Below, piece after piece: positions 5,582-48,063 of a stretch of 64,000 nt of DNA. Source of the DNA: a virus. Below the pieces are notes generated by a model, which saw only the letters and a program-made list of their open reading frames with translations, did no database searches and was not told where the DNA came from. The stretch is taken from positions 1 to 64,000 of IMG/VR virus record IMGVR_UViG_3300009502_000021; one strand, 5' to 3'. The translations under genes were made by a program, and so were the position numbers. Numbering within the stretch: the stretch's first letter is position 1; each line of letters opens with the position of its first letter.

Positions 5582-6790
5582 ATGTTGTTGAATGACCTAT
5601 TTGAAGCAGCACCCAAAAAAGCAGAGTTGAGATCCGGCGAGCGGAGGGACCTTGCTATAAAGTTGAAATACACCACCGAACTAATACGTCGGTTGGAAAG
5701 ATTGCGCAGCACATTGAGCAGTTTGAATATGACCCGGGATACTGGTGTTATTAAATTGGATCGACAGATTGAGGCCTTACGTGCAAGAATTGGTACCGAA
5801 CAGAAGAAGTTGGCCCAGACAATCGACAAACATCGCTCTATTGTTCCAGCAAAGGTTCAACAGTTATTCGCCAAGATGAAAGTGGAGTGCAGTGACTTTA
5901 TAAAGACATTACACCTCACTGGACCAAGTTACTATTTGTATCGAGGCATCAAGGGTTTTGATAAGCCGGCATTTGTTGCCCAGAGTCGAAGCGATCGAAA
6001 AGCTAAGGATAGCAGCCCGGCAGTGGCCAAAATGTTCGATAAGATGTTAAGCGAGCTTGGTTACAAGGCATTGCGTAGCAACAGTATCTTTGTTACTTCC
6101 AGCGACAGCTCGGCAGGTTCGTACGGTACGGTATACATGATCTTTCCGCGAAATGGATTCAACTATACCTACACCAAGCATCGCGATTTGATCCTTGACA
6201 ACAATTCGATGAGTGATGTTGTTGATAAAGACGAGATGCAGAAATTCCTTAAGGAGTTCCAAGACTGGGTTGCAACACCAGTTGGTCAGGAACAATTAAC
6301 ATTGGCCAAGGCATATGAAGGATTTGGTACACACAGCAGTGATCCAAATTCAGGATCCCTTCTCCTTCTATACAACATTATGATGGCCGCTGCCACAGAC
6401 AATGCCACCAAACTAATCTATAAATTGAACGACGCTGCATCTTATACCAGCCCTAGCATACTCAACTATGTCTTTAAAGGTATGCCGGACAAATTTAGAA
6501 AAGTGGATATGAGTAGTCTTATATCACAAAAGAGCTTCCAGCAATACTTTGACCCACATTCAACGGATCTAGCTCAGGCAATTATGGATCGTGTGGAGAT
6601 TTATATTTCGGGTACATATTATGCTTTACGATCAGATGTGTTCTCCGATTGGGTCTACGATGGCTTGCTAGCCGATTCCGATCCACACAAGCCTTGGGGT
6701 CCAACATACGCAAAAGAAAATCCTCCGGATTGGGAACCGGAGGATAATAAGTTTAGCTCGTATGATCCCGATAAGGATGATCCGTTTTAA
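5582..6790 (+). CDS. Alt-like ADP-ribosyltransferase homologue
   Basis: 402 residues, the longest of five related proteins here. The N-terminus MLLNDLFEAAPKK resembles capsid-targeting leaders of T4 Alt (MELITELFDED) and T4 internal proteins, and LFE/A fits the L/I-x-E cleavage rule of T4 prohead protease. The family core has an R motif (YLYRGIKG, about residue 119-126), an S motif (SNSIFVTSSDSS, about 174-185) followed by an aromatic strand, and a C-terminal RVEIYISG segment matching HEVMISG in the paralogues and carrying the presumed catalytic Glu; the first Glu of the usual ExE is Arg. Predicted role: modification of host proteins after injection (inference). Confidence 0.7.
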   Translation: MLLNDLFEAAPKKAELRSGERRDLAIKLKYTTELIRRLERLRSTLSSLNMTRDTGVIKLDRQIEALRARIGTEQKKLAQTIDKHRSIVPAKVQQLFAKMKVECSDFIKTLHLTGPSYYLYRGIKGFDKPAFVAQSRSDRKAKDSSPAVAKMFDKMLSELGYKALRSNSIFVTSSDSSAGSYGTVYMIFPRNGFNYTYTKHRDLILDNNSMSDVVDKDEMQKFLKEFQDWVATPVGQEQLTLAKAYEGFGTHSSDPNSGSLLLLYNIMMAAATDNATKLIYKLNDAASYTSPSILNYVFKGMPDKFRKVDMSSLISQKSFQQYFDPHSTDLAQAIMDRVEIYISGTYYALRSDVFSDWVYDGLLADSDPHKPWGPTYAKENPPDWEPEDNKFSSYDPDKDDPF

Positions 6791-7839
6791 TCCTTCTCTG
6801 CTAGAAGGTATTGGTTCGAGATCACCTTAAACGAGAAGTTTGGATCTTCAATGCATCGCCAAACTACACCCTCTCGTACTTGGGCGTGAAGGGATGGACC
6901 ATCGGCTGCTATCAACATCTTGGGCAATGAATCCAACGGCCGGAATGTTCCAAGTGATGGCACAAGTCGGCATAGCGTTGTATCAAGTCCTTCATACCGC
7001 AACTTCTCATAGAACAACTCTACAGCTCGAGTAGTATAGAAACTTTGACTATCGATGTCGTAAATGTCAAAGATGAACAAGGTGTGACAACCAAGCCCTT
7101 CTCGGTTACCTTGCACGCCGGGACCCATTAGCTCGCCTTGGATAGCAATGTTCAACCCAAACTTGGCCAGGCAAATAGCCAACTTTGATTCGGTGGCAGT
7201 CTTGATAAACGAGTTATCCTTGTTCTCTTCGGAGATAATCAATTCTAGATTGCGACTGCAAACACCAACATCGCCATCCTTGTAATACACAGTGCAGGAA
7301 CTTCCATCGAGCTTAATCGATACCTTAAAGTCCTTGCGTGAAAACTTCTCCATGACCTTGTCGTAGATGTTTTGAATACGCTCCTGGTCGGTCTTTGGAA
7401 TGAAGGATGGGAAGTTACCCTTCATCTTGCCGGCAAGTTGAGCCGGGATTGGTGCCTCCCACTTTTGAATACCCAAATGGTAAGCAAGATCCACACCCTC
7501 GGCAAACTTGAGCCACGGAGAACCAGTTACAGTCTCAACAATGTCTGTTGGCAATAGCAAACCCTGGCTCACTTGTCCGCGTAGCTTAATTGTACGGAGC
7601 CGGTTACCTTCGACATTGTTGTACACCTTTGGTGCCAAACCCTTTGAAAGGAACGGAGCCATTGTGTGCGGGACCCAAGAGTCAACCTCCAAATAGAGTA
7701 CCATGTCGCCAACATTGTAACGACCAACTTGATCCACAACCCACCAACCATCTACGCGATATGCGCAAATCTTGTCGGCGTTTGGGATTGCAGCGACTTC
7801 GGCAATTTGCCGGATCGTTGCTAACTTACGCTCACTCAC
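6787..7839 (-). CDS. RNA ligase, Rnl5 (DraRnl)-like
   Basis: 350 residues. The N-terminal 100 or so look like the OB-fold domain of the Deinococcus-type ligases. The nucleotidyltransferase domain follows: motif I KLDG with the adenylated Lys at about 176, VCSRN, QGELMGPGVQGN (motif III/IIIa area), EGVVWR (motif IV) and FKVISNQYL (motif V). It should join 5'-phosphate and 3'-OH RNA ends with ATP. It converges with the ART-like gene, overlapping by 4 nt, and overlaps the upstream gene by 8 nt. Confidence 0.88.
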   Translation of the reverse strand: MSERKLATIRQIAEVAAIPNADKICAYRVDGWWVVDQVGRYNVGDMVLYLEVDSWVPHTMAPFLSKGLAPKVYNNVEGNRLRTIKLRGQVSQGLLLPTDIVETVTGSPWLKFAEGVDLAYHLGIQKWEAPIPAQLAGKMKGNFPSFIPKTDQERIQNIYDKVMEKFSRKDFKVSIKLDGSSCTVYYKDGDVGVCSRNLELIISEENKDNSFIKTATESKLAICLAKFGLNIAIQGELMGPGVQGNREGLGCHTLFIFDIYDIDSQSFYTTRAVELFYEKLRYEGLDTTLCRLVPSLGTFRPLDSLPKMLIAADGPSLHAQVREGVVWRCIEDPNFSFKVISNQYLLAEKD

Positions 7840-11768: not shown

Positions 11769-11845
11769 ATGATACGGGATTTGGATCCAATTTGCAACAT
11801 CTAAATTCCCAATGATTTCAACAACTTATAAGTCATTGATTTTCA
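11769..11845 (-). promoter_or_regulatory. early promoter with conserved upstream cassette (copy A)
   Basis: TTGCAA, 17 nt containing GGATCC, TATCAT (11769-11797). The 45 nt upstream (11798-11845) are shared with copies at 26.6, 27.8 and 36.7 kb and contain a near-palindrome around ACTTATAAGT. Confidence 0.8.
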
Positions 11846-12720
11846 AGGAAACTTCGTATCACTGTAATTCGTCCCTGTTCGGACAACTTTGCAAACTCGC
11901 CCTTCCAGGGTTCAATCCAATCTAACAGCGGGTAATATTCCTCGTCAATCGTCTTGCGAAAATCCGGAGTCTGTATACGTTCGAGGAACTTCTCTTCCTT
12001 CATGCGCCCCAGGAACTTGGTCACCAAATAATATGGCGACTTGATCTTGAGTGCAATGTCCTTGCCGTATGCAACAAACCCTTCGTGCTTGCAAGTCTTG
12101 GCCTCCTGCACTACATCGGAGAAGCGACATACCTTCCACTCGGGGCGCAGGTATCCTTGCGCCTTGGCCACAGCGTCTAGAATTTCTTCACTGAGCATCT
12201 TGCCAGTAGAAATTACTCGGGCTCCGATCAAATACGCTCCTAAGTTTTCCTTGATGATGTGTGGATCCGATTCGTCGCAGATCTCAAACAACCAAGTCGT
12301 CGGAAATCCAAAGTGATGGGCTGGTACGAAACACTTGAGGTGCTTCTCAACCATTACAGCAAAATCCGAATCCAATGAACCAGTTGTCGAATAAATGATA
12401 TCATCTCGGGTACGGTCCCAAGTAATGGCACCCATGAACCCATTTACCTTCCGTACAGCAATAACCATTTCGTCACGCGGGATATCAACACCGCGCTCAA
12501 AGCGATTGTATATCTTCTGGAATGGACGCACTACTACGTTCCAATCCGCGTCCACAACCAATCCACGACATTCTTCAAGAAGGTCGTTCCACAGTGCATC
12601 GTAGAATACCTTGCGGGTATACTTGATGACATACAATCCCGGATACTTTGTTGACTCGCGACGAGTTATCAACTTTGGGTTGGCATCAATAAATTCGCGT
12701 AACTGTGCGATGTCAATCAT
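11833..12720 (-). CDS. RNA ligase, T4 Rnl1-like
   Basis: 295 residues. The motifs follow T4 RnlA: ECRGLVVDADWNVVVRPFQK upstream, a nucleotidyl-Lys motif KVNG at about 91-94, a FEICDESD region, EGFVAYG (motif IV) and LKIKSPYYL (motif V). KVNG differs from the standard KxDG in its third position. It should seal RNA breaks, for example in cleaved tRNA. Its ATG overlaps the stop of the kinase gene (ATGA), so kinase and ligase are probably made together. Confidence 0.85.
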   Translation of the reverse strand: MIDIAQLREFIDANPKLITRRESTKYPGLYVIKYTRKVFYDALWNDLLEECRGLVVDADWNVVVRPFQKIYNRFERGVDIPRDEMVIAVRKVNGFMGAITWDRTRDDIIYSTTGSLDSDFAVMVEKHLKCFVPAHHFGFPTTWLFEICDESDPHIIKENLGAYLIGARVISTGKMLSEEILDAVAKAQGYLRPEWKVCRFSDVVQEAKTCKHEGFVAYGKDIALKIKSPYYLVTKFLGRMKEEKFLERIQTPDFRKTIDEEYYPLLDWIEPWKGEFAKLSEQGRITVIRSFLENQ

Positions 12721-19167: not shown

Positions 19168-20544
19168 TTACTGAGCCTTAACGCGCTCTCGAATCAAGCT
19201 CAGGCTTTCCTCGCGTACCAGCTTACCATCTTCGTACACTACTTCAAGCACTGGATTGTGGACATGGTCACTACCTTCAATATCGGTGTGGTATGTATTG
19301 TTGATGTGATTGTAGTAGAGTTCCAAGCGACCCTTCTTTGACTTCTTGCCAAAATCCGTAACGGGATCCTTAAACACATCGCGCCATACGCCGTTCACCT
19401 TGACTGCGCTTGCCTTCATTGCAAACTTTTGCGTGTCCCGGTTCATGTGCTGGAGCAACGCACCACCCATACCAAACGCCACGTTATCCGCACTGTAGCC
19501 CATCATCCAAAGCCTTGCGAGAATGTCCTTAATGCTCTGCTCGTTGATGCCGTCACCTTGGATGACACGAACATTGTTGAGTAGCTTGTACCCATCTTTG
19601 GTTAGTGTGTGACCAAACTTCTTGTCCAGCAGTACCACCGAATGTGCAACAATGTCTGTTGGGTTACCCGAGTCCGGACGAACGACAAGCGTAGCACCAC
19701 TGTCGATCACTTGCTGGCGTAGTGTACCACCCCAGATGTTCTCAATGGCGTTGAACAGATCGTAGCTGTCGGAAACTACTGCAACTAGCGCACCGGGCTT
19801 GGCGAACTGCTTCAGCATATTTGCGTAAGCATCTTCCTCATGCTCCTTGCCCCAGCTGGTAATAGTGCTGTGTTCCGCTGCCGGAATACTAAAGCCCGCC
19901 ATGTGCTCGTTGTAATACTTGCGGGCGAACATTAGCGCCGGAACGTTGTCGGTACCCTTGAAGTTTACAAGATGTGCAGCACCACCAATAGCCGCACTCT
20001 CCAGCGAACTTACGCCACGCGCACCAAAGTCGTGCAGCTTGAAGTCAAGACCATCGAGGTTGTTGGCACTGGTATCCAGTCGCTCCTTGATGATCTGGCG
20101 AATGCTATGACTGATCGTTGCCACTGTGGTGGGATACCATACCGCACGAAGCAGGGCAGTCTCAACGTAGCTCGTCAACCAGGGCACTTCTGGGTCTGTG
20201 TTCTCCACCGTGACCAAAACGTTATGCGTTGGGACAATCGTTCCTTCGCGCACTGCCTTGATCTTGATTGGCAGAAAGCCATTGTGCTGGAGAAGAATGT
20301 GCTTCCACCCCGCCTCATTGAAGGGCACACCGTGTAGCGCATACACTTCCTTCGCCTCCGCGATATCTTCGTATGTGATCGGCTTCAGCAGGTATTCCTT
20401 GATAAATGCCTGCAGGCCGAAAAATAGCGTGTGATCATATTCGCCCCCGCGTGACTCGATGTAACTGAATACATTGGTTGTACCTTCTGGGTACTGCGCG
20501 AAATGCGAAACCTTGTACGAATCGGTATTTAGAATCATGTTCAT
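19168..20544 (-). CDS. nadV: nicotinamide phosphoribosyltransferase
   Basis: 458 residues, the normal family length. Motifs include LNTDSYKVSHFAQYP, KLHDFGARGVSS, FSIPAAEHSTITSWG, VRPDSGNPTD (PRPP/phosphate site), VIQGDGI and VAFGMGGALLQ. It makes NMN from nicotinamide and PRPP. With the NadM-Nudix protein at 20865-21944 it completes a two-step route back to NAD, known in phages as a way to restore NAD depleted by host defences. The leader matches that of the NadM gene. Confidence 0.95.
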   Translation of the reverse strand: MNMILNTDSYKVSHFAQYPEGTTNVFSYIESRGGEYDHTLFFGLQAFIKEYLLKPITYEDIAEAKEVYALHGVPFNEAGWKHILLQHNGFLPIKIKAVREGTIVPTHNVLVTVENTDPEVPWLTSYVETALLRAVWYPTTVATISHSIRQIIKERLDTSANNLDGLDFKLHDFGARGVSSLESAAIGGAAHLVNFKGTDNVPALMFARKYYNEHMAGFSIPAAEHSTITSWGKEHEEDAYANMLKQFAKPGALVAVVSDSYDLFNAIENIWGGTLRQQVIDSGATLVVRPDSGNPTDIVAHSVVLLDKKFGHTLTKDGYKLLNNVRVIQGDGINEQSIKDILARLWMMGYSADNVAFGMGGALLQHMNRDTQKFAMKASAVKVNGVWRDVFKDPVTDFGKKSKKGRLELYYNHINNTYHTDIEGSDHVHNPVLEVVYEDGKLVREESLSLIRERVKAQ

Positions 20545-20864: not shown

Positions 20865-21944
20865 TTACGCCCTGTTAATCATCTTAGATGCAATCGAGTA
20901 GTGGTCCTCGTACATCTCTGCGGTCATTGTGTAAAACTTAGAAAGTGGAACCCACTTGGCGCGTTCAGCATCATCACTTCCGCGTACCTTTGGTAGGTTG
21001 CGCTCGTGTAGCACAATCAGATATGCGTGTGTAATCGTGCGTCCGCGTTCACTGCGGTTGGGATGATCAAATACTTGTGAACCTTTGATGCTGGCACGCA
21101 GCACATCTCCATGTATCCGAATGCGAGTCTCTTCTTCGAGTTCACGAAGCATAGAATCTTCAATCCTCTCATTTGGACCGAGGAAGCCACCGGGCAATGC
21201 CCACAACCCCTTACCCGGCGCCATACGACGCTTGATGAGTAGAATGTGCCCATTGCAAATGACCACAGCGTCCGTTGTCACAAACACTGGTTGGAATGGT
21301 GCATTGGACCACATCTGCTTATAGTCCTTAAGGAACTTGTGTTCTTCACAGAGTGCGTTATTAAGGGCGGGGTTATTCTGGCGCCACGTATCGATGAAAT
21401 TCTTTACGCGCTCGGGCATAACATCTGCCGGTACCATCTTGTTACCAAACAGAATGTCACGGATGGTAGTCGAGTCCAGTGTATCGAAGTTTGGAACCTC
21501 AACAACTTCGTAATTTGGAAACATATCGAGATAGTAAGACGAATCGTCTTTGTGGTGGCCAATGATACAAACAGACTTGCCAACTGCCGTATCATAAATG
21601 TTATCTAATTCGTTTTCGATTTCTTGCTGCACCATAGCAACCCACTGTTGGTCATTGTAGAGATCGTCTACAAGTGGTGCCGATATTGTGCCCGGGGGTA
21701 ACATTGCAGCCCGTTCGTCATAAGTGAACGGGTTCTTAATGTTGCGTGCAATAAAGGAACTGCCGATGAGCACCAGGACGTTGTCCGAATGCTTTTTGGC
21801 TTCCTCAATCAACTTTTCGTGGGCATTATGGAATGGCTGAAAGCGCCCGATGATCACTGCTAGATCATAGCGCCTGGGTGTGATGGCCTTATCGGACCAT
21901 CCCATTGGGGACTTGTGTATATGAGCTGTTGTATTCATTACCAT
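20865..21944 (-). CDS. nadM: bifunctional NMN adenylyltransferase/Nudix hydrolase
   Basis: 359 residues. Residues about 30-200 form the adenylyltransferase: IIGRFQPFHNAHEKLI (HxGH-type site, here HNAH) and a late STTIRD (ISSTxxR-type). Residues about 215-350 form a Nudix domain with the full box G-x5-E-x7-RELEEE (from GGFLGPNERIED). The family makes NAD from NMN and ATP; the Nudix half probably cleans ADP-ribose or related nucleotides. AAGGAG lies 9 nt before the ATG. Confidence 0.94.
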   Translation of the reverse strand: MVMNTTAHIHKSPMGWSDKAITPRRYDLAVIIGRFQPFHNAHEKLIEEAKKHSDNVLVLIGSSFIARNIKNPFTYDERAAMLPPGTISAPLVDDLYNDQQWVAMVQQEIENELDNIYDTAVGKSVCIIGHHKDDSSYYLDMFPNYEVVEVPNFDTLDSTTIRDILFGNKMVPADVMPERVKNFIDTWRQNNPALNNALCEEHKFLKDYKQMWSNAPFQPVFVTTDAVVICNGHILLIKRRMAPGKGLWALPGGFLGPNERIEDSMLRELEEETRIRIHGDVLRASIKGSQVFDHPNRSERGRTITHAYLIVLHERNLPKVRGSDDAERAKWVPLSKFYTMTAEMYEDHYSIASKMINRA

Positions 21945-42106: not shown

Positions 42107-42751
42107 TTACTTGCTGATGTTGCGCCTTGCCTTTTGGTCGGCTATCCATTTTGTAGCAGCCGGACGATTTGGGGGCGTGCGGACAAACTTGTCCAATTCT
42201 TTTCCGTAATAAGACAGATCTGGATACTCCTCACCGCTGTTGTCCACGATGAGTAGCTTGTTGCCAAATATGCGCTGAAGATCGCCCAAGTTGTCATTGA
42301 CCTCTTGGTGCATCTGTTTCACCAAACTCGGATCAACTCTTCTGGTGCGGAGCTCGTTGCGGGTGATTGCGGTCTTGAGGTCGGTGTTAACGAAAATGGC
42401 CATTGTCTCATAACCCAAATCTTCGAGTAATTTTTTGGTTTGCTTCAAACGATCGATCTTGCGACCGGTACCATCGATAATCATACCCAATCGATGTTGT
42501 AAAAAGAGTTCAAATCTCTTGTCGGTTTTGTTACCGGCGTGCCAATATAGTTCCTTGGCGTAGTTACCGGTGATACCGGCTTTGGACATGAGTAGGGTAT
42601 AGAAACGATCAATATCAACTGTACGCAACCCGGTGCCACCAAGTAGCTTATTGGCTATGGTTGTCTTACCCGATCCCGGACCACCAAGAGTAAACACGGC
42701 CTTGAATATGCCCGGATCATTTATACCTTCGATTAAGTTAGCCCCAGTCAT
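42107..42751 (-). CDS. P-loop kinase, zeta-toxin-like
   Basis: 214 residues from the ATG at 42751. Walker A TLGGPGSGKTT, DIDRFYTLL in the Asp position used by zeta/PNK-type kinases, LGMIIDGTGRKIDR and ELRTRRVDP (lid Arg). It overlaps the last ART-like gene by 14 nt, so it belongs to that operon. Zeta toxins phosphorylate nucleotide sugars; the substrate here is unknown. Confidence 0.78.
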   Translation of the reverse strand: MTGANLIEGINDPGIFKAVFTLGGPGSGKTTIANKLLGGTGLRTVDIDRFYTLLMSKAGITGNYAKELYWHAGNKTDKRFELFLQHRLGMIIDGTGRKIDRLKQTKKLLEDLGYETMAIFVNTDLKTAITRNELRTRRVDPSLVKQMHQEVNDNLGDLQRIFGNKLLIVDNSGEEYPDLSYYGKELDKFVRTPPNRPAATKWIADQKARRNISK

Positions 42752-43658
42752 CATAGTCATCCATCCAGTCAATAAAATTTGCGTCCGGTTTCCCACCATT
42801 AAGCATTGGAATAATCATATCGTCGTACATAGAATCGTCAATGTATATAGCCGAATTGCACTGAATCATAATTTCGTGCCCGGATTTAATTGCCTTAGGC
42901 AAACCCATATCAACCAAGATGTACTTCTTAACTGCTGGCACACTAAAGAATTCTTCGCCGGGCAACTTGCGCATCTTGGCGGCTTCTCTTCTATAATATA
43001 GTTGTCGGGTATCTAACCATCTTCTCTTATTGGCTTGTTTGGAAAAATTCTTGAGTTCCTGGAAATATTTTTTGGCATTGGGATCTTTTTCCCGTCGGGC
43101 TTTTGTGGCCTTGTCGTCGAGCTTGTCAATTAACGCCATATACTCGTCGCGTGCCGCGCGGAAATCATCGTCGGCCTTTAGATACACTTTGGCAATTTTT
43201 GAATTTAAGAAATAGTTCCAGGCACCCATCTCGGTTGAATCATTGGTCCAATCGCGCCACCGTGTGTTCCATGTGTAATGGAACTTACCCTGTGGGATTA
43301 CTACCCATGTTTTCCCAAATGTTTCTGCTAGAGATTCGTCGCCGGTAACAAACATTGAATTGTTTCTATTGGCAATACCCCCAGCAACTGCAATCAGTTT
43401 ATTGAACATTTCGTGCTGTGAGGCATCGGAATCTTTTGGCCTACGATTGTCACGAACTGCACGAATATATGCATAGTTATTATCACCAGCATCCGAACCG
43501 CGATACACTCCTATCTTTCCATTATCTGTTTGATTCAACCATGGACGGGCAGTTTTTTTGATCAACGCAACAAGTTTGGATGCGGCTTCGTGAGCTTTCT
43601 TTTTTGTAAGGCCACCAATAACCTTCTGCGGAGCGTAGCTGATTTCGTTGAGCTTCAT
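42738..43658 (-). CDS. ADP-ribosyltransferase-like protein (tandem copy 4)
   Basis: 306 residues. N-terminus MKLNEISYAPQ; R motif IGVYRGSDAG; a conserved R-D-x-R-x-P-x-D linker; S motif NRNNSMFVTGDES; a VVIPQGKFHYTW strand; and GHEIMIQCNSAIYI with the presumed catalytic Glu. A lysine-rich helical insert lies at about 145-215. A late box (GCTAAATA) ends 5 nt before the ATG. Of the usual ExE, only the second Glu is present. Confidence 0.72.
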   Translation of the reverse strand: MKLNEISYAPQKVIGGLTKKKAHEAASKLVALIKKTARPWLNQTDNGKIGVYRGSDAGDNNYAYIRAVRDNRRPKDSDASQHEMFNKLIAVAGGIANRNNSMFVTGDESLAETFGKTWVVIPQGKFHYTWNTRWRDWTNDSTEMGAWNYFLNSKIAKVYLKADDDFRAARDEYMALIDKLDDKATKARREKDPNAKKYFQELKNFSKQANKRRWLDTRQLYYRREAAKMRKLPGEEFFSVPAVKKYILVDMGLPKAIKSGHEIMIQCNSAIYIDDSMYDDMIIPMLNGGKPDANFIDWMDDYDDWG

Positions 43659-43662
43659 GTTA

Positions 43663-44388
43663 TTATTTAGCTTTACCCGTCAACAACGGTTGCACATAGT
43701 CTTTGTAAAAATATGCATTGATGAACAGCGTTTTTTCACACTTCACCATAATTTCGGTGCCCTTCTTAAGAGCAACAGATAGTCCAGTGTCGGCCTGTAT
43801 TACCTTGGGGACTTTCTTTGGATCATAATTCTTGGCCTGTAATGTTAGTTTCTCTAACATTGCCGATAATTCGAACGGACCCAATGGTTTTTTATAAATT
43901 GTCTTTACAATTGCCGGGTTCAAAAAACTAATCAACTTATCGTACTTCAGTTTGTTCGTCCAATCCTTTGCTACTGGGGACCAAGTATAATTGTATGCAC
44001 CCAAAGGAATTACCACAAATATATTTCCGTAGAATCCAGCCATTGTGTGATCCGAGGTAAGAAATATACTGTTTGATCTATTGGCTATACCACCACCGGC
44101 GGCAATCAAAGCATTAAATGCCTTATGTCTAAATGATCCAGTATCCCGGGGTTTACGGTCGAGTCGTGTTTTTCGAACAAATGCCACCGGGACCTCGTCA
44201 TTAAAGTGTACGCCACGGTACACGCGCACCCCCTTAGTAGCCTCGAACCAAATGCTACCTTGCTTTAAAATTTGGGCTGCAATGAGTTCGGCCTTGCGTT
44301 CTATATCTTCGTGTTTAAGGGGGTTTGTTACTTGTTTTAGGCCATATGGACCCTTGGCAGTTGTTGGTGATATTTCATTAATTTTCAT
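43663..44388 (-). CDS. ADP-ribosyltransferase-like protein (tandem copy 3)
   Basis: 241 residues. N-terminus MKINEISPTTAKGP; R motif VRVYRGVHFND; VAFVRKTRLDRKPRD; S motif NRSNSIFLTSDHT; VVIPLGAYNYTWSP; and GTEIMVKCEKTLFINAYFY. The shortest intact member, it probably represents the bare domain. ATGA coupling with copy 2. Confidence 0.72.
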   Translation of the reverse strand: MKINEISPTTAKGPYGLKQVTNPLKHEDIERKAELIAAQILKQGSIWFEATKGVRVYRGVHFNDEVPVAFVRKTRLDRKPRDTGSFRHKAFNALIAAGGGIANRSNSIFLTSDHTMAGFYGNIFVVIPLGAYNYTWSPVAKDWTNKLKYDKLISFLNPAIVKTIYKKPLGPFELSAMLEKLTLQAKNYDPKKVPKVIQADTGLSVALKKGTEIMVKCEKTLFINAYFYKDYVQPLLTGKAK

Positions 44389-45133
44389 ACTGCGGACCTT
44401 CGTAATTCGGCTTGCACCCCGGCGGTTTTATACATTTCTTCGGAGACATACACCGCAGCATCACACTTGATCATTACTTCGTGATTGGTGTGTAAAGCAT
44501 TTTGCAGGCCGGTGTTAATATCAAAAAGGTTTTTAACTTTAGCCAGGTCATATGTCTTTGGATCGTCAAGTGGGGCCAAATATATGTAGCCACCATGACT
44601 GTGCTTCTCGACAAAACGCTTCTTTGTATACCTTGCAAGCTCGTCGGCTTTCAACATGAGAAGATCTTCATATGGTGGGCTCCACGCATATTCAAAATTA
44701 CCAATTGGGAAGATGGCATACCTATCACCGTAATAACCAGCGGAGCCATAGTCACCAACAAATATGCTATTCGACCGAGTAACTGGCGATTTGATTAACG
44801 ATAGCATTGCATTAAAGGCATTGTGCATTTCCATCGATGATCCAAGTGGCAGTCTATCCGGTCTAGTCTTTCTGACAAAGACATGACCAGTTGGCCTTGT
44901 GTATTAATACCACGCCATGCAGTAACACCGCCGCTGCCGCCGTTACCGGTTAATTTGATCCAACGTGCGCAATGTGTTCGCAAATAATGTACCACCAAAC
45001 CAGCATAGTGACTCAATGGCAGTGAGGGATCAAAATCTATTTCTGGAACGGACTGTGGCTTATATGGTGTGGAGTCTGTGGCCTTCTTGGCTCTCTCGAT
45101 TGGGCCGTCTTCAAATAGTTCCATTATCTTCAC
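44385..45133 (-). pseudogene. ADP-ribosyltransferase-like gene with frameshift (tandem copy 2)
   Basis: The start MKIMELFEDGP is the closest match here to the T4 Alt leader. The first frame runs through the R motif AWRGINTQG; the family continuation (HVFVRKTRPDRLP) lies in another frame, and from there RSNSIFVGDYGS, AIFPIGNFEYAWSP and NHEVMIKCDAAVYV are intact. Comparison with copies 1 and 3 suggests one missing base near 44889-44895. No slippery heptamer is seen, so a mutation or sequence error is likelier than programmed shifting. Confidence 0.7.
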
Positions 45134-46011
45134 AGTATCAAATCTCTTACATATTGACCATAAAAGGTTTTGTTGATGTACAAAATATCCGATCCGGAAA
45201 TCATAACCTCGTGCCTACTCTGAATAGCATCGGCAAGGTAACGGTCGACAATAATGGATTGCTTGAGTTTATCCAAGTCATATACTTCGGGCTTTAAAAT
45301 GTTCGGCGAATCATAATTCAAACTTGCCATTGCCCTAGCAATTTCGACACCCCTTGGTCCTTTAAGGTTCTCGATATCTTTCTTAAGATTGTTAATGCGG
45401 TTTATCGACGGGCCGCCGGCGTACTGTATGCGCTCTAATTCCCTAGAATATTTTGCAATCTCGATTTCAATCCATTCTTGCACCTCTTCATCGCTCATCT
45501 CTTTATATTCTGGTTTCATCAGATGTCGCATCTGAGTATTCTTGAAGTTAATGGTCCAGTCATCAAAATATGGACTCCATGTATAATGGAAATTGCCAAT
45601 TGGGAATACTGTGAACGTATCACCATATTCGGTTGTTGATACTGTGCTGCTGGTGCAAAATGCCGCGTTGGATCTGTTGGCTGTACCACCGGCTAGCTTG
45701 ATGAGCATGTTGAATGCATTGTGTCTGAATTTTTCAGTATCGCGGGGTTCACGATCTGTTCTAACATCCCGAATGAACGCAACTGCACCACCAGTGTGTC
45801 GCACACCACGATATAGTGTTTGATCATGCGGATTGACATCGGCGAGATATGGTTTGCAATTTTTGTTAATGAATGCTGCAAGGCCCGCTGCTACCTTCTG
45901 GGCATCTTCGAAGTGCATAAGGCGGTTAATGCCGACAAGCAAGTCGTCGGCAAACGGGACTCCGGGTACAGCCTTGTTTTCGGCTTCTATTAAGAATTCC
46001 GAGGCTCTCAT
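45130..46011 (-). CDS. ADP-ribosyltransferase-like protein (tandem copy 1)
   Basis: 293 residues. N-terminus MRASEFLIEAENK, where LIE/A fits a prohead-protease site; R motif TLYRGVRHTGG; AFIRDVRTDREPRD; S motif NRSNAAFCTSSTV; TVFPIGNFHYTWSP; a helical insert; RHEVMISGSDILYI. First gene of the coupled set of four plus the kinase. Confidence 0.73.
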   Translation of the reverse strand: MRASEFLIEAENKAVPGVPFADDLLVGINRLMHFEDAQKVAAGLAAFINKNCKPYLADVNPHDQTLYRGVRHTGGAVAFIRDVRTDREPRDTEKFRHNAFNMLIKLAGGTANRSNAAFCTSSTVSTTEYGDTFTVFPIGNFHYTWSPYFDDWTINFKNTQMRHLMKPEYKEMSDEEVQEWIEIEIAKYSRELERIQYAGGPSINRINNLKKDIENLKGPRGVEIARAMASLNYDSPNILKPEVYDLDKLKQSIIVDRYLADAIQSRHEVMISGSDILYINKTFYGQYVRDLIL

Positions 46012-46637: not shown

Positions 46638-46855
46638 TGAATTCGGTTCATCAACCGGGCAAGCGCCAATTCTCCCTGAATTTCGTTGTCCTCTGTCAAC
46701 CGTAATACTATGTTAAATTGATCGGACGGGATTTCTTCCTCGTCGATGCCCATAAGCATCATCAACTCACCGCTCGAAATCGACTCAACTCCCTGCATCT
46801 TAAGTTGATACAGCACCGATAAAATTTGGTCGTTTGTTTCGTCTCGGTCGGTCAT
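46634..46855 (-). CDS. hypothetical protein
   Basis: 73 residues, acidic and helical, ATGA-coupled to the paralogue run upstream. Confidence 0.68.
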   Translation of the reverse strand: MTDRDETNDQILSVLYQLKMQGVESISSGELMMLMGIDEEEIPSDQFNIVLRLTEDNEIQGELALARLMNRIH

Positions 46856-47184
46856 GTAAGTTCATCTCCTGTGAAAGAACGCTCGGATAAGCGGCAGCGG
46901 ATAATAAAATGGGATGCACGATCCTTCTTGGCGCTTGAATAATATTTACCAAAGCGATCCAACTTAAACCACCTAAGTCGAACGGGGAAGATCTTAGCAA
47001 TCTCCTTGGCATTGCGATGGTTTTCCGGTGTATATTTAATCGGCTTGGTATTCCAAATCTGTGTTGGATCACTCCAAATTTTCTCCTCAGCCTCATTGCG
47101 CAAGCATTGGTTCAACCACTCTTGCTGTTCGGGTGTGAGTAGTAGGAAACGAGATGATGGATCGGAGATGGATACTTCAATCAT
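46852..47184 (-). CDS. FLRF-family protein, copy 4
   Basis: 110 residues opening with SSRFLLLTPEQQEWLNQCL, the block shared by four adjacent genes (F-x-LLT-x-x-Q-x-x-WLN). A basic C-terminal half follows. Function unknown. Confidence 0.74.
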   Translation of the reverse strand: MIEVSISDPSSRFLLLTPEQQEWLNQCLRNEAEEKIWSDPTQIWNTKPIKYTPENHRNAKEIAKIFPVRLRWFKLDRFGKYYSSAKKDRASHFIIRCRLSERSFTGDELT

Positions 47185-47513
47185 AGTTTAAAGGATTTTA
47201 AAATCTCTTTCAAAACCATCTCATCGATTTCTTTCTGAATCTCTTCGGACATTATAGCTGTTACCTCGGCCTCGAGATCAATTTCGTCGCTGCGCCGGAA
47301 CGAAAACGCCGGTTTTTCGTAATTATGTTTTACGAGCACATCAAAATATCTATTGATGCGGTCAAATATTTCTAGATTTTCGGCTGTACTCGAAATCCAC
47401 AATACACGATCGTATCTAGATATATGCATATCCAGCCAATGGTTCTGCTCAGTGGTGAGCAGTGTAAAGCGGACCATCTTGTTATCGACAGAATACCGGT
47501 TTTCTTCGTTCAT
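47181..47513 (-). CDS. FLRF-family protein, copy 3
   Basis: 110 residues with MVRFTLLTTEQNHWLDMHI near the start and an acidic helical tail. ATGA coupling on both sides. Confidence 0.74.
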   Translation of the reverse strand: MNEENRYSVDNKMVRFTLLTTEQNHWLDMHISRYDRVLWISSTAENLEIFDRINRYFDVLVKHNYEKPAFSFRRSDEIDLEAEVTAIMSEEIQKEIDEMVLKEILKSFKL

Positions 47514-47773
47514 GGCCAGAACTTAAACAGTTTGCCATCGGGGGACAATATCCACGCAAATTGCAATGAGAGTTTCTTGGCAATAGCTTGAGCCATTTTT
47601 CTATTGTACCTAGTGTTCTTAACCCACTCACTCTTAATGCGAAAAAAATCACCGGCTCCCACCGGAGGCCAATTCCTATTAAGCCACCCAACTTCTCGTG
47701 CTGTGAACAAACTAAACCGTAAGAACGGATCCTCCATAATACCACGTAAATTCGATTCGCGTTCGATAATCAT
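47510..47773 (-). CDS. FLRF-family protein, copy 2
   Basis: 87 residues with FLRFSLFTAREVGWLNRNWP and a later RYNRKMAQAIAKKLSLQFAW that matches RYNYQMLERIAKRLDI in copy 1. Confidence 0.74.
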   Translation of the reverse strand: MIIERESNLRGIMEDPFLRFSLFTAREVGWLNRNWPPVGAGDFFRIKSEWVKNTRYNRKMAQAIAKKLSLQFAWILSPDGKLFKFWP

Positions 47774-48063
47774 ATGTAAAACCTAAACTCTCCATTGATA
47801 TGGTCTGCTGCGGTTGCAGGCGCGATATCAAGCCTCTTGGCAATACGTTCCAACATTTGGTAGTTATAGCGCGATGCTTTGATTGGTAAACTGGCACTAG
47901 TCTGAGTTATCAACCAATCGCCCAAGGGCCAATACTTGTTCAACCAATGATTCTGAATTGGAGTCAAAGCACCGAATCGTAGAAACGAATCGTTAATTCG
48001 TTCTCTCCTTTTTGCCGCTATACCCACTGGAATCGTCTCGATGTCTATGTGATACTTGGCCAC
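47770..48063 (-). CDS. FLRF-family protein, copy 1
   Basis: 97 residues with FLRFGALTPIQNHWLNKYWP and RYNYQMLERIAKRLDI. First of the four tandem copies; overlaps the deaminase gene end by 19 nt. Confidence 0.75.
   Translation of the reverse strand: MAKYHIDIETIPVGIAAKRRERINDSFLRFGALTPIQNHWLNKYWPLGDWLITQTSASLPIKASRYNYQMLERIAKRLDIAPATAADHINGEFRFYI

Follow-up and report, generated by a model that had tools for sequence, protein, structure and literature searches.

The 64,000-nucleotide stretch of viral DNA analyzed here, which we term the window, belongs to a virus record of 108,297 bases (IMGVR_UViG_3300009502_000021) and carries on its minus strand a tandem array of paralogous genes whose products resemble ADP-ribosyltransferases (ARTs). 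We consider it fairly probable that the array is a cassette of ART-like effectors that are packaged in the phage head and injected into the host. The array products are homologous to one another, are encoded in similar tandem arrays in other phages, conserve a set of putative active-site residues, have an ART-like predicted fold and begin with leaders that are specific to each phage, and the arrays are linked to a kinase gene.

Array copy 1 (45130..46011, minus strand; 293 amino acids) begins with the leader MRASEFLIEA, followed by an ART-like domain with the motifs LYRG, NAAFCT and HEVMI, and matches PHROG 11975 at E 2e-41. Its leader (45982..46011, minus strand) is of a capsid-targeting-like type with an [LIF]xE site, and putative cleavage would fall after MRASEFLIE, before the Ala. 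Adjacent to it lies a frameshifted copy (44385..45133, minus strand), whose N-terminal part (open reading frame (ORF) 44795-45133) has the leader VKIMELFEDG and the motif WRG, and whose C-terminal part (ORF 44385-44834) has NSIFVG and HEVMI. Two further intact copies complete the array on the same strand: a protein of 241 amino acids (43663..44388; leader MKINE; VYRG, NSIFLT and TEIMV), for which a structure was modelled with AlphaFold, and one of 306 amino acids (42738..43658; leader MKLNE; VYRG, NSMFVT and HEIMI; PHROG 11975, E 3e-29). A dispersed fifth copy of 402 amino acids is found on the plus strand at 5582..6790 (leader MLLNDLFEAAP; LYRG, NSIFVT and VEIYI; PHROG 11975, E 5e-31). With the 241-residue protein as query, the other window copies were matched at E 2e-28, 2.4e-28, 4e-24 and 2.5e-14, well beyond chance. 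The PHROG 11975 profile matches four copies and the C-terminal part of the broken copy (E 2e-41 to 9e-17), and every intact window copy matches PHROG 15932 as well. A sequence-only reading of the window had described four tandem copies and a fifth at 5.6 kb, all sharing an R motif, an S motif and a C-terminal E block. The fifth copy is indeed homologous to the array copies, and the motifs are seen in all five; the four tandem ORFs are likewise present and homologous, but only three are intact, the third in order of coordinate being split by the frameshift.

The R, S and E positions occur in the order expected of ARTs. Across the whole family the Glu is kept in 266 of 266 sequences and the R-motif Arg in 254 of 275, and a second Arg just before the S motif is present in all 278; the S-motif Ser is kept in 31 of 39 members. 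Two positions ahead of the Glu, the window has Gly in the copies at 42738-43658 and 43663-44388, Asn in the broken copy and Arg in those at 45130-46011 and 5582-6790. The earlier observation that only the second Glu of the classic ExE is kept, the first being Gly, Asn or Arg, thus holds in the window. Because Glu or Gln occupies that position in just 3 of 39 members (Glu in 2, Gln in 1, neither in 36), the missing first Glu is a trait of the family. In this the family is unlike the R-S-E clade with ExE or QxE (T4 Alt/VIP2 and Mod), since most of its members have neither residue two before the Glu.

Structure prediction points in the same direction. The AlphaFold model of the 241-residue window copy has a predicted local distance difference test score (pLDDT) of 83.8, with core blocks at 93-98 and residues 1-13 and 19-22 below 50, and that of a compact relative reaches a pLDDT of 95.1 and a predicted template modelling score (pTM) of 0.89. 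In the model, R34 falls within the strand formed by residues 33-36 and E163 within that formed by residues 163-166. When the compact model was compared with known structures by VIA-align, 12 of the 14 matches were to ART superfamily structures, all at weak Z scores (2.0 to 4.4), in keeping with the ART relationship proposed in the sequence-only reading. The matches include Arr (Z 4.4, 89 residues aligned, root mean square deviation (rmsd) 4.5; a second Arr structure at Z 3.7), exotoxin A (Z 3.5; 121 aligned, rmsd 4.5), cholix (Z 3.5; 110, 4.1), diphtheria toxin (Z 3.3; 85, 3.8), Tpt1 (Z 2.4; 74, 4.0), pertussis S1 (Z 2.2) and OspC3 (Z 2.0). The top match was BC2332, a protein of unknown function (Z 6.5; 128 aligned, rmsd 4.1). 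For the window-copy model the structural matches were Arr, CopC/OspC3, Tpt1 and AcrIF11. The family thus aligns weakly, over most of its domain, with ARTs of the Arr, AcrIF11, Tpt1, OspC3 and exotoxin A types, but shares no sequence similarity with them, and the sets of catalytic residues differ. Since each match is weak, the evidence for an ART fold lies in the consistency of the match list and in the conserved residues in ART order; on these models an ART-like fold is likely for the family.

The family extends well beyond the window. Its profiles, PHROG 11975 and 15932, are labelled 'unknown function', as is PHROG 12810, discussed below, and Pfam gave the window copies nothing but sub-threshold or chance matches, such as Pet100. 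Relatives in cultured phages are found in Agrobacterium phage Atu_ph07 and Salicola phage SCTP-2. Atu_ph07 has an unbroken array, gp054-gp063, and the adjoining gp053 is a family domain fused to a kinase. Scans of viral contigs, for which a ten-sequence profile was too divergent to serve, yielded 286 ORFs of the family, spread over 63 contigs, of which some are near-duplicates. At least two family ORFs lie within the fetched stretches of 49 of the 63 contigs, and 207 of the 286 ORFs have a family neighbor on the same strand at most 200 bases away; whole records hold up to 13-15 family matches each. A nucleotide search of phages gave no match. A quick tree, not a finished one, suggests two old subfamilies that co-occur in many arrays, together with phage-specific expansions, and dN/dS (the ratio of nonsynonymous to synonymous substitution rates) is 0.03-0.35 in most measurable pairs of orthologs. 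A structure search of BFVD returned 27 significant matches; every one is a phage protein, and hardly any has been characterized.

The leaders offer a further line of evidence. Array members of one phage begin alike, whatever their subfamily: M[RK]WxQLxE in Atu_ph07, MRAIELYE in contig L017, MITFKQFLxE in several contigs and MKINDILKEN in SCTP-2. Between subfamilies of one phage the identity of the leaders is 0.58 and that of the domains 0.18; between phages, within one subfamily, the values are 0.33 and 0.23. The choice of start codon favored leader-like starts in these comparisons, alike in all classes. Leader identity tracks the phage, not the subfamily. An [LIF]xE site occurs in the first 14 residues of 34 of 34 members, compared with 37 of 113 other phage genes, and a search of 490 kb with the DNA pattern of the Atu_ph07 leader found 10 sites, each of them the start of a family gene, compared with 0 for the reversed control. 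One family member begins MKTFKQF, where T4 IPI begins MKTFKEF; T4 Alt begins MELITELFDE. The resemblance to T4 capsid-targeting leaders proposed in the sequence-only reading is supported by the [LIF]xE enrichment, by the tracking of phage and by this IPI-like start.

The same leaders are found on proteins unrelated to the family, namely kinases, PARP-like YHGT/YHGS proteins, a GNAT-like protein, amidoligases and a C39-like protein; in the window phage, the kinase is the only unrelated cargo on which a leader was seen. In T4 internal proteins the capsid-targeting sequence is the sole shared element (PMC3012670), and these proteins act against the first-response defences of the host (PMC9391042). 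The family is like T4 IPI-IPIII in that a short N-terminal leader is common to otherwise diverse proteins; unlike IPI-IPIII, the cargo consists of ART-like proteins, a kinase and others, and the leaders vary between phages. Individual cases were noted in several contigs. Two small proteins in L017 (9542-9934 and 14555-15082) combine the array leader with a YHGT motif and are PARP-like, the second with a weak PF00644 match. An amidoligase at L045:1501-2679 (PF12224, E 1.5e-9) has the leader MITFKQFLDEA and is possibly a packaged peptide ligase, and a protein that by eye is C39-peptidase-like (contig 3300046710_000261:105185-105760) begins with the array leader MRLNEFISEK.

A link to the virion comes from Atu_ph07, for which Attai et al. 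identified 131 virion proteins by mass spectrometry; products of 29 of the 46 coding sequences in CDS 31-76 were found in virions, just two of them predicted to be structural (PMC6102473). The array of this phage, with its 11 family genes (gp053-gp063), falls inside CDS 31-76. As a rough argument at the level of the cluster, the chance that 29 random picks among 46 genes would miss every family member is about 1e-6. Packaging of family proteins in heads is likely. Among the 13 distinct records with arrays that were tested, 7 encode a prohead protease (PF03420). The same cluster was termed structural by Attai et al. and tied to the hairy morphology of the phage (PMC6102473), and the proteins could be structural components of the virion, for example of whiskers or the capsid interior, built on an ART-derived fold that has lost enzymatic activity; the incomplete conservation of the S-motif Ser noted above, and of the R motif, which is replaced in about 8%, would be in keeping with this. 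We regard it as quite unlikely. An invariant Glu and an invariant second Arg in very divergent members amount to active-site-like conservation, copy number and subfamily vary from phage to phage, unlike those of a structural lattice protein, and clear enzymes (the kinase and the amidoligase) bear the same leader.

Adjoining the array in the window is a gene for a P-loop kinase of the AAA_33/Zeta-toxin/polynucleotide-kinase-like type (42107..42751, minus strand; PHROG 12810, E 7e-50), which the sequence-only reading did not mention. It matches PF13671 (E 1e-11) and PF06414 (E 7e-8) and has the P-loop GGPGSGKT. Its likely start at 42751 gives the leader MTGANLIEG and a slight overlap with the array; its relatives also carry a leader. 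PHROG 12810 itself consists of an ART-like domain followed by a kinase. Among the 63 contigs, 32 have the kinase, and in 28 of these it is fused to a family domain or abuts a family gene (at most 9 bases). It is possible, if rather improbable in our view, that the whole forms a modular head-packaged cassette, in which a lineage-expanding family of ARTs, of a new R-S-E type without ExE, would be joined by a dedicated kinase that modifies either the targets of the ARTs or the ADP-ribose product, and which unrelated effectors would enter by gaining the leader of the phage.

The kinase also bears on the chemistry. The substrates of the array products may be nucleic acids or small molecules, as in 2'-phosphate removal by Tpt1 or drug modification by Arr, and the kinase would then serve the same RNA or nucleotide pathway. 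The structural matches include both Arr and Tpt1, the tightly linked kinase is polynucleotide kinase/Zeta-like, the family has extra invariant Arg residues, and RNA ligases are encoded in the window (6787-7839 and 11833-12720), the former adjoining the dispersed ART-like copy. The catalytic set of Tpt1, on the other side, is Arg-His-Arg-Arg, which does not include the invariant Glu of the family, and so many paralogs are easier to reconcile with a variety of targets than with a single housekeeping reaction; such an activity seems to us doubtful, slightly more so than the modular cassette. The window further encodes a nicotinamide phosphoribosyltransferase of nicotinamide adenine dinucleotide (NAD) salvage (19168..20544, minus strand; PHROG 448, E 2e-166) and a NadM-like cytidyltransferase/Nudix protein, which would convert nicotinamide mononucleotide to NAD (20865..21944, minus strand; PHROG 395, E 6e-77; PHROG 1198, E 2e-20). 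As a pair of predicted functions they possibly fit use of NAD by the array products. Of the 10 array records tested, 6 have PHROG 448, and nicotinamide phosphoribosyltransferase is, in the survey passages searched, also described as common in large phages (PMC9503650). A macro domain that might serve as a dedicated eraser was not found in the window's record; 4 of 10 array records have one. Contig L014, which also has a kinase-ART fusion, encodes a macro-domain protein at about 14124.

For the injected cassette we propose the following course. The array would give rise to divergent R-S-E enzymes with an ART fold, each made with a short N-terminal leader, which would bring them into the core of the phage head as it assembles; the prohead protease would probably trim the leader at the [LIF]xE site, and the proteins would enter the host together with the DNA. 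There they would most likely use NAD to ADP-ribosylate a number of different host molecules, and each copy would owe its own target to gene duplication and to divergence of the loop that contacts the target. The adjoining leader-bearing P-loop kinase would be part of the same cassette. We infer the packaging of exactly these proteins, their cleavage, injection and catalysis, and their targets.

Several results weigh against this proposal. No structural Z score exceeds 6.5, and plain Foldseek searches of the PDB with both models, the window copy and the compact relative, gave no significant match. By sequence, no link to any known ART was found: Pfam ART families did not match the 39 members at E 0.1, a profile of the family found nothing in the PDB, and hhalign against T4 Alt gave a probability of 0.1, equal to that of a DNA ligase control. 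The proteins had been called Alt-like ARTs; the ART-like fold (12 of 14 structural matches) and the conserved R, S and E positions speak for the second half of that name, but Pfam, PHROG and hhalign do not place them in the T4 Alt family, and the comparison with Alt fails at the level of profiles. Window leaders are less uniform than those of other arrays. Neither a T4-type prohead protease nor a convincing gp23 was found in the window's 108-kb record or in G006, a relative of 242 kb, and for the window phage the processing machinery is therefore putative. Upstream, at 46637-46609, the window array has strong sigma-70-like promoter matches, and the T4 late-promoter octamer was not found near it. 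These promoters, the lack of a late promoter nearby and the missing protease would suit ART-fold enzymes that are made after infection and never packaged, their leader being a conserved start with another role. That leaders track the phage, sit on unrelated proteins, are disordered in the model and resemble T4 IPI, and that the Atu_ph07 array lies inside the cluster of virion proteins, makes this account improbable, to about the same degree as a structural role.

In the broken copy the start and the R motif are read in one frame, but the S and E motifs lie in a different one; a -1 shift would be needed near 44880, and the frame of the C-terminal part is open up to about 44903. A second assembly, L008, matched over 20,393 bases at 99.995%, carries the identical break, which makes a random sequencing error improbable. 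A programmed frameshift was considered, but no canonical slippery heptamer was seen by eye at the junction, and decay or a real indel is therefore preferred. Another array member, L017:9938-10597, is cut by an in-frame TAA, which indicates that array copies decay in other phages too.

Two other features flank the array. Just upstream of it (46852-48063, minus strand) are four small paralogous ORFs in tandem, of 87-110 amino acids, which are about 27-31% identical to the first and have a DPFLRFxLLTPEQNHWLN-like core in common. Beyond the kinase, a 12/12 match to the sigma-70 promoter (42103-42074, minus strand) lies upstream of a metallophosphoesterase gene, and the palindrome TTGACACCCTGTGTCAA overlaps its first hexamer, in an operator-like placement.

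Tandem duplication of ART genes has precedent in T4, with the adjacent partial duplicates alt.-1 and alt.-2, and in 44RR, with a full-length duplication of alt (PMC1524935). The family is like T4 Alt in its proposed ART nature, in a leader with an [LI]xE site (MELITE in Alt), in tandem duplication and in its presumed head packaging; unlike Alt, it is without ExE, is much shorter, occurs in up to 13 or more copies, has a linked kinase and shows no detectable sequence relation. According to the survey passages searched, phage ARTs are proposed to be often head-packaged, most of all in myoviruses, and a jumbo phage can carry a large number of them, at least 10 in the case of phage G; those passages do not describe this family, the Atu_ph07 and SCTP-2 arrays, the leader signature or the kinase partner (PMC9503650, PMC7824862, PMC5512222). 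The idea of injected phage ARTs is thus already known, as far as these passages go, and the family and its array organization appear to be new.

T4 packages one ART, Alt; here a phage record can have 5 to 15 divergent ART-like proteins with leaders of the head-targeting type, and most array proteins are named just 'hypothetical' or 'uncharacterized'. The presence of a kinase as partner hints at a second modification, so far not looked for. If the proposal is correct, the leader would offer a simple route, from sequence alone, to listing every injected effector of a phage. If the array products are injected enzymes, many large phages would, within the first few minutes after infection, modify a whole set of targets in the host.

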